Positions 44,484 through 61,996 of a stretch of DNA of 64,000 nt are shown one piece after another; position 1 is the stretch's first letter, and the number at the start of each line of letters is the position of its first letter. The stretch comes from an uncultured Opitutaceae bacterium (GTDB lineage Bacteria > Verrucomicrobiota > Verrucomicrobiia > Opitutales > Opitutaceae), in the NCBI GenBank assembly GCA_903919205.1, contig CAIXHE010000109.1, positions 1-64,000 on the forward strand, given 5' to 3'. The notes under the pieces are model-generated. The model made no database searches and was not told the DNA's origin. It worked only from the letters and a program-made list of their open reading frames with translations. The position numbers were made by a program, and so were the translations under genes.

Positions 44484-44525
44484 AGACTACCGTTTTGAAC
44501 GGGGCTGCGAGATGGGGTGAAACCC
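44484..44525 (-). promoter_or_regulatory. Shared-architecture promoter upstream of atpD
   Basis: GGGTTTCACCCCAT-N21-GTAGTCT on minus strand. Confidence 0.6.
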
Positions 44526-44535
44526 GCCCGATCCA

Positions 44536-46881
44536 CTAGGACAGGCGCAGGCGCCGCAGGACCGGGACCTTCGCGAGGTCGAGGAGGACCGCGAAGGCCG
44601 CCGCGCCCGCGAGCATGCATGCGATCCACAGGGGCGGGACAGGCGCCATGGCCACGCCCCAGAGGGCAAGCGCGGAGGCGATCGCCACGTCCGCGACGCT
44701 CGAAGCGACCAGCCAGCCGCTGGGGGGCGAGGTCCACAGCCCGAGTCGCACCCGGTTGCAGTACGTGGTCGCCTGGTTTCCGAAGACGATGGCGAGGAAC
44801 GCAAAGGTCCTGAGCGGCTCGATGGCCGGCCCCAGCCGGCCCCGCGCAACCAGGAGCACCGCCAGGCAGTAGCCGAGCTCGCAGAAGCCCATGAAGGCGC
44901 CCGCCAGGGTGAGGCCCCCGACATGCCACGCGTTGGGTTTGGGGGAGGGGCGGACATTGTCCGTGGTGAGCGACATCCCGAGGAGATCGCCGGTCAGCAT
45001 GACGATCACCATCAGCATCGGGGTGAGGATGGCGTGCCCGGTCAGCACGAGGCCCGCGGCCAGAAAGAGCACCTGCACGATCTTCTTGGTCACCGAGTTG
45101 AGCGTGTAGGTGAGGATCCTCTGGAAGGTGATCCGGCCCTCCTTCACCGAGGCGACGATCCCCCCCAGTCCCGGCTTCGTCAGCACGATGCCGGCCGCCG
45201 CCTTGGCCACGTCGGTTGCGGTGGCGACGGCGATGCCCATGTGCGCCTGGCGCAGCGCAGGCGCATCGTTCGCGCCGTCGCCGCACATGCCCACGGTGTG
45301 CCCGCTCCTCTGGAAGGCCTTCACCAGGGCGAATTTCCCCTCGGGAAGCACCCCGGCGTAGACGGAGTATTGCTCGGGCCGAGCGTCGGGGGGCACCGCC
45401 CCGGGCGGGCACGCGGGGCCCTCGAGACCCACCTCGCGGGCCGCGATGAGCGCGGTCTCCGGTGCATCACCCGTGATCATGACCGTGCGCACGCCGAGGG
45501 TGCCGAGCTCGGCCACGAGGGCGGAGGAGTCCGCGCGGGGCGGGTCGCTCAGGCCGATCACCCCGGCGAGCCTCAGGTTGCCTGGGGCGCCCGCGGCTAC
45601 CGCGAGCACGCGCATCCCGCTCGCCTCCATCTGGGCGGCGACCCCGGACGCCTCGGGACAAGCCTGGCATAGGCGCGAGACCACGTCGAAGGCCCCCTTC
45701 ACCGCAAGCTCGGCGCCGCCGCCGGGTGAAAGCGTGGCCTGGGACATCTTGGTCGCGGGGTCGAAGTGCGAGAAATGGAGGAGCGCGGGTAGGCCCGCCG
45801 CCGGATGGAGCAGGGCCGCCGAGCGCACCGCGGCGTCCACGGTGTCCTGTCCGCCCTCCGAGCTGGCCAGGGAGGCGAAGCCGAGCACGTGGGCTTCGTC
45901 GAAGCCCTGCATCGGGCGGGTCTGCGTGACGCTGAGCTCGTTGCAGGTCAGGGTTCCGGTCTTGTCCGCGCAGAGCACGTCGATGCTCGCCGCCTCGTCA
46001 ACCGCCGACAGCCGCGTCGGCAGGACGCCGACCCGGCCGAGGTCCCTCGCGCCCACCGCCGCGGCCAGGGTGAAGGTGGCGGGAAGGGCCACCGGGACCG
46101 AGGCCAGGACCGCAGTCAGCACGAGGGTAATGATCTCGCTTGGGGGGCGCCCCAGGTGGTGCGCGTAGAAGGCCAGGGCCACCGTGATCGCACCGTTGCA
46201 GATCGCGAGGTTGCGCACCACGCGGAAGACGGCCTTCTGCTGCGTGCTCTCGACGCTCGCCGTGCGGACGAGCTCCGCCGATCTCCCGAACTTGCTGCGG
46301 CTGCCCGTGGCCGTCACGAGCGCCTCGGCCTCCCCGCGCCTGACGAGCGCCCCGGAGAAGGTGAGGACGCCGGGGCCGGCGTCGATCGGGATCGACTCGC
46401 CGGTCAGCATCGACTGGTCAATCAGGACCTCCCCTCCGGTCAGGGTCACGTCGGCGGGCACGCGCCCCCCGAGGCTCAGCTTCACCCGGTCGCCCGGCAC
46501 CACCTGCGCGGCGGGAACCACCCTCCATTTTCCATCCCGGAGCACCGAGGCGCTGAGGGCGAGGCGGGACCTGAGCGCCACCAGAGTAGCCTGGGCCCTC
46601 CCCTCCTGCACGAAGCCGAGGAGCGCGTTGAACGTGAGCAGGGCAAGCAGGATCGACCCCTCGACATACTTGCCCAGGCAGATCTCCAGCACGAGCGCGG
46701 CCTCGAGCAGCCAGGGGACGGGCGCCGAAAACTGCGAGAGGACCCTCCAGAGCACTCCAGGCCGCGTGTCGGGCAGCGAGTTCGGACCCCACGCCGCGAG
46801 TCGGCTCGTTGCCTCGGCGGCCGAAAGGCCCCCGGCCGGCGTGGCCGGGGGAGGTGGCGGCTGCTTGGACTCTGCGGTCAT
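44536..46881 (-). CDS. PMA1-type H+-exporting P-type ATPase
   Basis: SMLTGESIPID; CADKTGTLTCNELSVTQ; MCGDGANDAPALRQAHMGIAVATATDVAKAAAGIVLTKPGL. Confidence 0.92.
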   Translation of the reverse strand: MTAESKQPPPPPATPAGGLSAAEATSRLAAWGPNSLPDTRPGVLWRVLSQFSAPVPWLLEAALVLEICLGKYVEGSILLALLTFNALLGFVQEGRAQATLVALRSRLALSASVLRDGKWRVVPAAQVVPGDRVKLSLGGRVPADVTLTGGEVLIDQSMLTGESIPIDAGPGVLTFSGALVRRGEAEALVTATGSRSKFGRSAELVRTASVESTQQKAVFRVVRNLAICNGAITVALAFYAHHLGRPPSEIITLVLTAVLASVPVALPATFTLAAAVGARDLGRVGVLPTRLSAVDEAASIDVLCADKTGTLTCNELSVTQTRPMQGFDEAHVLGFASLASSEGGQDTVDAAVRSAALLHPAAGLPALLHFSHFDPATKMSQATLSPGGGAELAVKGAFDVVSRLCQACPEASGVAAQMEASGMRVLAVAAGAPGNLRLAGVIGLSDPPRADSSALVAELGTLGVRTVMITGDAPETALIAAREVGLEGPACPPGAVPPDARPEQYSVYAGVLPEGKFALVKAFQRSGHTVGMCGDGANDAPALRQAHMGIAVATATDVAKAAAGIVLTKPGLGGIVASVKEGRITFQRILTYTLNSVTKKIVQVLFLAAGLVLTGHAILTPMLMVIVMLTGDLLGMSLTTDNVRPSPKPNAWHVGGLTLAGAFMGFCELGYCLAVLLVARGRLGPAIEPLRTFAFLAIVFGNQATTYCNRVRLGLWTSPPSGWLVASSVADVAIASALALWGVAMAPVPPLWIACMLAGAAAFAVLLDLAKVPVLRRLRLS

Positions 46882-46935
46882 CGCACGGCGGTCCCCGGCC
46901 CCTGCGTCATCACCGGTCGGGACAGGCCCGGGCTC

Positions 46936-60304: not shown

Positions 60305-60994
60305 ATGCATCCGCGCAGCCAGCTATCAGGATCCCAACTCCGCACCTATGAGCGCATCTTCCAGCACCCGATGTCCCACAACCTGGGCTGGCACGACGTC
60401 TACGGCATGTTCAGCCAGCTGGGCACGGTCGAGACCGAGCCCAACGGCAACACGAAGGTGACGCGCAACGGGCAGTTCATCACGCTGCCGCCCCACCGCA
60501 CGAAGGACGTCTCCGAGGACCACGAGGTCATGGTCCTCAGGCATTTCCTTGAGCAGACGGAGATACCGGAATTCAAGGCGCCCGAGCTCGAGGGCCATTG
60601 GTTGGTGGTCATCGATCACCACGAGGCCCGGCTCTTCAACTCCGGGGTTCCTGGGTCCGAGGCGGCGAAGATGCTGACCAACGAGCCCCACTACTTCCGC
60701 CATGCAGCGCATTCGAGGGAGTTCGCCGAGGGCGAGGAGAAGCCGGACCCGAACACCTTCTTCACCCCGCTGGCGAACGCCCTCAAGGGGGCCCGCAAGG
60801 TTCTCGTCTTCGGCAACGGCACGGGGATGAGCAGCGAGATGGACCAGTTCGTGGGCTGGCTTAAGAAGCACCGACCCGAGCTCTCCCGCCGCGTGGTGGG
60901 CTCGGTCGTCGTCAACGAGAACCACCTCTCCGACGGCCAGCTCCTCGAGAAGGCGCGGGTGTTCTTCGCCGGCCTGCCGGACGCCCACACATGA
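60305..60994 (+). CDS. Hypothetical two-part protein: HicA-like N-terminus, eRF1/host-attachment-like C-terminus
   Basis: LGWHDVYGMFSQLGTVETEPNGNTKVTRNGQFITLPPHRTKDVSEDHEVMVLRHFLEQ then VLVFGNGTGMSSEMDQFVGWLKKHRPELSRRVVGSVVVNENHLSDGQLLEKARVFF. Confidence 0.55.
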   Translation: MHPRSQLSGSQLRTYERIFQHPMSHNLGWHDVYGMFSQLGTVETEPNGNTKVTRNGQFITLPPHRTKDVSEDHEVMVLRHFLEQTEIPEFKAPELEGHWLVVIDHHEARLFNSGVPGSEAAKMLTNEPHYFRHAAHSREFAEGEEKPDPNTFFTPLANALKGARKVLVFGNGTGMSSEMDQFVGWLKKHRPELSRRVVGSVVVNENHLSDGQLLEKARVFFAGLPDAHT

Positions 60995-61929
60995 AGCTGA
61001 TGAAGTGCGTCTGCATCTTTCGGTACGGAGGCCCCGAGGTGCTCGCCTACGAGGACGCGCCGTGTCCCCACCCGGGAGACGGGGAGGTGCTCGTGCGGGT
61101 CCACGCCGCCGGCGTGAACCCGGTCGACTGGAAGATCCGCGAGGGTTTCCTGGTCGAGAAGATCCGCCACACCCTGCCGCTCGTTCTCGGGTGGGACGTG
61201 TCCGGGGTCGTGCATTCGATCGGCGGCAACCTCAAGCGCCTGAAGGTCGGGGACGAGGTCATGAGTTGCCCGGATGTCGCCCGGGACGGGGCCTATGCGG
61301 AATACATCGTCATCAAGGAGTCCGAGGTGGCCCTGAAGCCCGCGTCGGTGGACCATCTGCATGCAGCAGGCCTGCCGATGGCCGGCCTCACCGCATGGCA
61401 GGCCCTCTTCGAGCATGGCGCCCTGGCGAAGGGCCAGCGCGTGCTGATCCAGGGGGCCGCGGGCGGCGTCGGCAGCATGGCGCTCCAGCTCGCCAAGTGG
61501 AAGGGCGCGTTCGTCGCCGGCACCGCCTCGGAGGGCAACCATGACTTCCTGAGAAAACTCGGGATCGACCAGGTGGTCGACTACCAGCGGGAGCGCTTCG
61601 AGGACGTGGTCGGGCCCGTAGACGTGGTGATCGACACCCAGGGAGGCGACGTGCAGGAGCGCTCCTGGAAGGTGCTCAAGCCCGGCGGGATCCTGGTCTC
61701 CGTGGTGAGCCCGCCCTCCGAGACTCTGGCGGCCCAATTCAAGGCGCGGGGTGTCTTCTTCTTCGCCCGCTCGGACATCGGTCAACTGGCCGAACTCGCC
61801 AAGCTGGTGGACAGCGAGAACCTGAAGGTCATCGTCGAGACCACGTTACCCCTGTCGGACGCGACCCGGGGCCAGGAGCTGAGCCAGCGGGGCCATGCCC
61901 GCGGCAAGATCGTCCTGAGGGTGGTGTAG
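60991..61929 (+). CDS. NADP-dependent quinone oxidoreductase / MDR-family dehydrogenase
   Basis: VLVRVHAAGVNPVDWKIREG; VLGWDVSGVVHSIGGNLKRLKVGDEV; VLIQGAAGGVGSMALQLAKWKGAFV. Confidence 0.92.
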   Translation: MKLMKCVCIFRYGGPEVLAYEDAPCPHPGDGEVLVRVHAAGVNPVDWKIREGFLVEKIRHTLPLVLGWDVSGVVHSIGGNLKRLKVGDEVMSCPDVARDGAYAEYIVIKESEVALKPASVDHLHAAGLPMAGLTAWQALFEHGALAKGQRVLIQGAAGGVGSMALQLAKWKGAFVAGTASEGNHDFLRKLGIDQVVDYQRERFEDVVGPVDVVIDTQGGDVQERSWKVLKPGGILVSVVSPPSETLAAQFKARGVFFFARSDIGQLAELAKLVDSENLKVIVETTLPLSDATRGQELSQRGHARGKIVLRVV

Positions 61930-61954
61930 GGCGCCCCGATGACCGGCCCACGTG

Positions 61955-61996
61955 GGGTTTTACCCCATGGTCCCCGCGCCGGGTCCGGGTTACGCT
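61955..61996 (+). promoter_or_regulatory. Shared-architecture promoter upstream of PRC-barrel gene
   Basis: GGGTTTTACCCCAT-N21-TTACGCT. Confidence 0.65.

Follow-up and report, generated by a model that had tools for sequence, protein, structure and literature searches.

The closest described counterparts of the system considered here are the DevR/DosR system of Mycobacterium and the OsdR system of Streptomyces, in which an autoregulated NarL-family response regulator recognizes a G-rich palindrome and the partner kinase is, as here, of the HisKA_3 type. In these dormancy systems the promoter-proximal site overlaps the -35 region (PMC3029386), and sites are clustered around the regulator gene and before stress genes (PMC5069765). 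A comparable arrangement is found in an uncultured Opitutaceae bacterium of the phylum Verrucomicrobiota, where a two-part promoter element recurs in front of stress and energy genes. The stretch of DNA analyzed (the window) comprises 64,000 nucleotides (nt), positions 1-64,000 of contig CAIXHE010000109.1, a 100-kb contig in a 3.26-Mb genome assembly (174 contigs, 88% complete). Exact literature searches returned no match to the motif, and no regulon of this kind in Verrucomicrobiota, a phylum of soil, peat and freshwater, was found in the open literature searched.

Architecture and distribution of the promoter element

The element has the consensus GGGTWWNACCCCAT-N22-YANNNT, and its conservation in relatives indicates that it is a real promoter. 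The original prediction, made from the window alone, had placed six copies there, and all six were found at those places and with that spacing when the sequence was read:

44484..44525, minus strand: GGGTTTCACCCCAT-N22-TAGTCT, exact composite, matrix score 27.5; precedes the operon of an alternate (N-type) F1F0 ATPase, whose beta-subunit start codon lies about 79 nt downstream
49468..49509, minus strand: GGGTTTGACCCCAT-N22-CATCCT, exact composite, matrix score 25.6; precedes the phosphoketolase gene, whose open reading frame (ORF; 46936-49497) likely has its true start at ATGAAACTC, downstream of this -10 box
50810..50851, plus strand: GGGTAACACCCCAT-N22-CATGCT, highest matrix score, 34.2; precedes a MerR/HspR-like ORF of 186 amino acids (50825-51385) with a likely start at ATGAATTCC near 50915
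51416..51457, plus strand: variant element GGCCAAGACCCCAT-N22-TAACCT, matrix score 19.2; precedes a DUF2934 protein and an ABC exporter operon (51706-56372)
60200..60241, plus strand: GGGTTTGACCCCAT-N22-CATGCT, exact composite, matrix score 29.0; precedes a 229-residue ORF at 60305
61955..61996, plus strand: GGGTTTTACCCCAT-N22-TACGCT, exact composite, matrix score 30.1; precedes a PRC-barrel gene

The scores come from a matrix that was trained on seven other same-genus genomes only, with the window's own genome excluded, and softened with relaxed sites from other genomes. Within the window this matrix recovers exactly the six predicted sites. Contig bases 1-44,000 contain no matrix site, and nine further sites lie at 72-95 kb, before genes for BON-domain, extracytoplasmic function (ECF) sigma, kinase, SPFH (Band 7) and other proteins. 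The 15 sites on the contig, compared with none at the same score in shuffled contigs, are all confined to one 50-kb stress island, and essentially all of them point toward a nearby gene. When one mismatch is allowed, GGGTNNNACCCCAT occurs 10 times in the window compared with 0.73 expected, a count reached in none of 100 shuffles. Genome-wide counts, obtained from pattern searches and fetched loci, gave six occurrences of the full composite in the own genome and none of the reversed control. All six lie on the window's contig, five of them being predicted sites and the sixth located beyond the window at 76638-76679. The bare 14-mer occurs nine times in this genome, and seven of these occurrences are on the same contig between 44.5 and 76.7 kb.

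The architecture was examined in an aligned set of 119 bare 14-mer sites fetched from the genomes of 11 relatives. The hexamer YANNNT (mostly TANNNT) stands exactly 22 nt past CAT in 93 of the 119 sites and within 21-23 nt in 104, compared with 7 at control offsets of 31-33; a -10 box at 22 nt was also present in 21 of 31 independent named loci. The original prediction had described a 7-mer with an invariant C at its sixth position; a -10 element is indeed present, but its true form is YANNNT and the C is a local coincidence. The spacer between ACCCCAT and the -10 box is featureless in the aligned sites, and no -35 hexamer was found in them. Beyond the fixed 14-mer, the sites share an A/T-rich N3 core (WWN) and a T at -2. 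Relaxed searches in relatives showed no freedom in the right half, ACCCCAT, whereas the left half tolerates GG followed by two variable bases (GGCC, GGTC, GGTG); consequently, the site at 51416 is a variant and not an exception. If the -10 box occupies -12 to -7, the dyad is centered at approximately -43. The fixed distance between operator and -10 box, the operator position near -41 to -43 and the missing -35 box together give the element, as judged from the alignment, the geometry of a class II activator-dependent promoter, in agreement with the position originally proposed. The accompanying comparison with CRP/FNR-type activators holds for position, but the likely regulator belongs to the NarL/FixJ family.

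The element is widespread and patchy. Several same-genus genomes contain 10-20 occurrences of the bare 14-mer (0-2 in reversed controls), and in the family the exact composite was found 393 times in 95 of 250 genomes, compared with 2 matches to the reversed pattern. Hence the scan for background-frequency occurrence proposed with the prediction did not refute the motif, and both the matrix scan of the contig and the pattern scans of related genomes place the sites far above chance. Across the phylum, 54 of 388 genomes carry the exact composite, scattered patchily over approximately 30 families besides that of the window. A scan of named GTDB species with a single version of the sequence yielded a list of 80 loci, almost all from Verrucomicrobiota (Opitutaceae, subdivision 3/Limisphaerales, Verrucomicrobiales, Akkermansiaceae and Methylacidiphilales). 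Among the motif-bearing strains is Verrucomicrobia bacterium IMCC26134, whose genome is complete. Single composites were also seen in Shewanella, Phycisphaerales, Propionicimonas and Mucilaginibacter; such isolated composites outside Verrucomicrobiota are probably chance matches.

The candidate regulator and competing explanations

The motif is probably read by one NarL/FixJ-type response regulator, encoded in an operon (contig 73112-74971, minus strand) that lies 9 kb past the end of the window:

contig 73112-73789, minus strand: NarL/FixJ-type response regulator (REC-GerE); PF00072 E 9e-27 and PF00196 E 8e-18, both above cut-off
contig 73805-74971, minus strand: HisKA_3 histidine kinase of the same operon; PF07730 and PF02518 (HisKA_3 and HATPase_c)

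The regulator has the N-terminal receiver and C-terminal GerE/LuxR helix-turn-helix of the NarL/FixJ family, as well as the HisKA_3 partner kinase expected of it. The operon is conserved, and the kinase gene adjoins the regulator at almost every regulator locus examined. Most motif-rich same-genus genomes encode the regulator with approximately 80-86% identity, while motif-poor ones lack it. Among the 250 family genomes, 65 have both motif and regulator, 30 the motif only, 18 the regulator only and 137 neither (p ~2e-20). Outside the family, the corresponding numbers for 351 genomes are 31, 10, 5 and 305 (p ~1e-30), and 142 of 165 sites fall in regulator-bearing genomes. Permutation within families gave 8.2 expected joint occurrences compared with 21 observed, a value reached in 0 of 20,000 permutations; thus, shared ancestry of whole families does not explain the association. 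The linkage is also physical: of 29 genomes, 12 have a site no more than 5 kb from the regulator gene, where uniform placement would predict 0.28. The motif occurs in the operon's own promoter in eight of the genomes, which include most of those of the same genus and some of other genera. Furthermore, the DNA-binding helix ISIKTVEKHR is nearly invariant among motif-linked regulators and differs in paralogues. The tight linkage to a single response-regulator gene, together with confinement to one island, supports the earlier proposal of one dedicated regulator for the ATPase, phosphoketolase, exporter and stress genes.

It is therefore likely, though well short of certain, that the element is the binding site and promoter of one activator-dependent stress regulon under this operon-encoded regulator. 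Sequence comparison establishes the element itself, its spacing, where in the genomes it occurs, its targets and its tie to the regulator operon; from these patterns we infer physical binding, activation as the direction of regulation, and the signal. In the proposed mechanism, the kinase encoded at 73805-74971, whose N-terminal input domain may resemble the four-helix domains of RsbU_N and KaiA, would phosphorylate the response regulator, and a phosphorylated homodimer would bind TNGGGT-WWN-ACCCCAT centered near -43. The bound regulator would then cover the place of the missing -35 box and, by class II activation, recruit housekeeping RNA polymerase to the YANNNT -10 box located exactly 22 nt further on. 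The operon would be autoregulated via its own motif. The predicted output is a general-stress/dormancy programme comprising the alternate N-type ATPase, phosphoketolase, PRC-barrel, BON, CsbD and glyoxalase proteins, with a Dps-like ferritin, an exporter and membrane proteins as further members. In two genomes (G005 and G010) the operon promoter upstream of the kinase reads GGGT-N4-ACCCCAT, one base longer, and autoregulation may follow a different arrangement there.

Several observations weigh against this assignment. Genome G009 has 11 sites, but its regulator gene beside the kinase homologue lacks a DNA-binding domain. All six sampled genomes of another genus (g2) carry 1-7 sites and no close regulator. 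In G009 and genus g2, either another protein must serve or the regulator gene was missed, and no shared substitute regulator was found on reading the motif clusters of genomes without a close regulator. These genomes are the main reason that confidence in the regulator is not higher. Conversely, the 18 family genomes with the regulator only have no exact composite. The dyad is of odd length, unlike the even-length NarL-family sites known to us, and the operon's own promoter has a poor -10 box (GACAGT). The regulator could be a conserved member of the regulon rather than its binder.

The last point is developed in the explanation that survives best, namely that the promoter is a true class II promoter bound by another regulator, the response-regulator operon being only a frequent member of the regulon. 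Motifs without a close regulator in G009, genus g2 and approximately 30 of the 95 motif-bearing family genomes would fit it, as would the odd-spaced GGT-N3-ACC geometry, which recalls FadR-type GntR sites, and the linkage of an ECF sigma gene to the same operon. We nevertheless regard it as improbable, since no other DNA-binding gene was seen recurring in motif clusters and the linkage to the response regulator holds over more than 20 families and also within families. A FadR/GntR-type regulator was weighed solely for its dyad geometry; none was noticed among the island genes, and no genome-wide search was aimed at it. The MerR/HspR-like protein encoded at 50825 was rejected as the binder, as its family match is unconvincing and MerR proteins do not sit at -43; it was not profiled across genomes.

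Repression is a second alternative, in which a protein bound over the -35 region blocks polymerase. An operator in this position is also a repressor geometry, but a repressed promoter would normally retain its -35 box, whereas none is present here and the -10 spacing is fixed, making repression very unlikely. There is less still to be said for reading the composite as a promoter recognized by an alternative (ECF) sigma factor, in which ACCCCAT would serve as the -35 box. An ECF sigma gene stands beside the regulator in seven genomes, often with the motif upstream; however, 22 nt from ACCCCAT to the -10 box is too long for the two contacts of a sigma factor, and this reading was rejected on spacing. 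Moreover, the -10 box is a housekeeping one in type (TANNNT), and the GG half upstream is much too distant to belong to any -35 box. Finally, a chance or compositional artefact, for which only the small number of sites first noted could be cited, is refuted by dinucleotide shuffles, reversed-pattern controls and several hundred other genomes and has a negligible probability.

The ECF sigma gene of the window's own contig (72271-73077, plus strand) is convergent with the regulator gene and has motif variants upstream on both strands. This pairing recurs in the genus, and the sigma factor may form a second tier of the response.

Target genes and a possible Kai input

Pfam scans of the first genes downstream of 223 sites identified PRC-barrel (21), BON (15) and glyoxalase (15) as recurring families, along with receiver and kinase domains, DUF4142, DUF5670/DUF3309, CsbD, phosphoketolase, nitroreductase and DUF305. 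In relatives, no family follows the motif more often than PRC-barrel (14 of 134 and 7 of 89). These families suggest that the regulon is a general-stress or dormancy programme, and the recurrence of the element before the same kinds of genes across the phylum agrees with a shared regulon. The genes in the window are as follows:

38408-39964, minus-strand operon: alternate F1F0 ATPase alpha subunit, TIGR03324 above cut-off
42810..44405, minus strand: alternate (N-type) F1F0 ATPase beta subunit, first gene of the operon, TIGR03305 above cut-off
46936..49497, minus strand: phosphoketolase (xfp), NF003619, 1396 bits, above cut-off
56438..58288, plus strand: KaiC homologue, NF006799, 718 bits
58285-58614 and 58691-58978, plus strand: two KaiB-domain genes, PF07689, E ~3e-24 each
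58975..60207, plus strand: PAS-HisKA_3 histidine kinase of the kai cluster, its 3' end overlapping the 60200 element
60305..60994, plus strand: 229-residue protein with no family assigned, a recurrent motif target in the genus
62061..62774, plus strand: PRC-barrel protein, PF05239

The ATPase operon spans 38408-44405 and lies under a predicted stress promoter. The ORF at 50825-51385 has a weak HspR match (25.8 bits), the protein downstream of the 51416 variant matches the DUF2934 family, and orthologs of the 60305 ORF also follow the motif in four other genomes. Beyond the window, an ORF of 2870 residues (contig 85954-94566, minus strand) has a motif approximately 83 nt upstream, and its homologues occur in the motif clusters of four genomes.

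The kaiC gene, two kaiB-type genes and the PAS-HisKA_3 kinase gene are consecutive in the stress island (56438-60207). Motif-associated kaiC genes were found at two further loci, and in several other genomes, one of them belonging to a different family, kaiC neighbours the regulator operon; the island kaiC is 60-82% identical to five such copies. As for the kinase of the regulator operon, its first 105 residues align across the phylum. The Pfam RsbU_N profile is above cut-off in only one of its relatives (32.1 bits) and just below in a second (24.0), and does not match the kinase of the window's genome. In a PDB profile search with the input domain, RsbU chains were among the top matches, weak and non-significant (E ~0.1). 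The AlphaFold model of this domain is a four-helix structure (predicted local distance difference test score 88) that resembles the KaiA C-terminal domain with a template modelling score of ~0.64 at a non-significant E of ~0.7. KaiA and RsbU_N are reported to have this fold in common and to bind their partners at equivalent sites (PMC11372060). Taken together, the apparent RsbU_N/KaiA likeness, the kai genes in the island and the kaiC genes beside the regulator elsewhere make a Kai or RsbT-like input to the kinase a reasonable but unproven idea. The fuller proposal, a wide but patchy general-stress programme of Verrucomicrobiota acting via a kinase with a KaiA/RsbU-like domain that is controlled by the island KaiC/KaiB (or an RsbT-like partner), is tentative and on balance doubtful. 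If true, class II promoters of genes for dormancy and energy would receive direct input from the Kai machinery.

Comparison with known systems

These results define the promoter code precisely, list its targets in hundreds of genomes and single out one named regulator as the candidate, making the question of general stress in this phylum directly testable, and they tie Kai proteins, phosphoketolase and an alternate ATPase to a single putative stress signal. KaiC-linked signalling offers a partial parallel, as KaiC, two KaiB genes and a kinase are together in the island, but no KaiA gene, and no sign of oscillation or of contact between KaiC and the kinase, was seen. The RsbU/RsbT general stress response (SigB-type) may be paralleled in the putative RsbU_N-like input domain and in the predicted general-stress output, and RsbU_N kinases in operons with rsbT have been described in Proteobacteria (PMC12143880). 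In that system the output is an alternative sigma factor, whereas here it would be a response regulator acting at a class II promoter; no rsbT stood out in the gene models of the contig, although no search was aimed at it.

Within the NarL/FixJ family the regulator has the same REC and GerE layout. A PDB sequence search gave VraR as the closest match (E = 1e-37), followed by NarL (2e-30) and DevR (8e-29), a level of similarity common to many members of differing function, and we know of no matching binding motif in the family.

The nearest likeness is to DevR/DosR and OsdR: here too the site falls at the -35 region, sites gather around the regulator gene, and the targets are stress genes. The palindrome here, GGGT-N3-ACCCC (motif GGGTWWNACCCCAT), differs from the AGGGCCGATCGGCCCT of DevR/OsdR (PMC5069765), and the motif does not conform to a Dev box-type palindrome (GGGCCGATCGGCCC-like). 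Here there is as a rule one site per promoter, in contrast to DevR/OsdR. The kinase input looks RsbU_N/KaiA-like or PAS, whereas DevR/DosR-OsdR sensor kinases have GAF domains, of which none was matched in the kinases scanned. By analogy, then, this regulon appears to work like the DevR/OsdR dormancy systems and not to be a member of them, being set in another phylum and directed at largely different targets.

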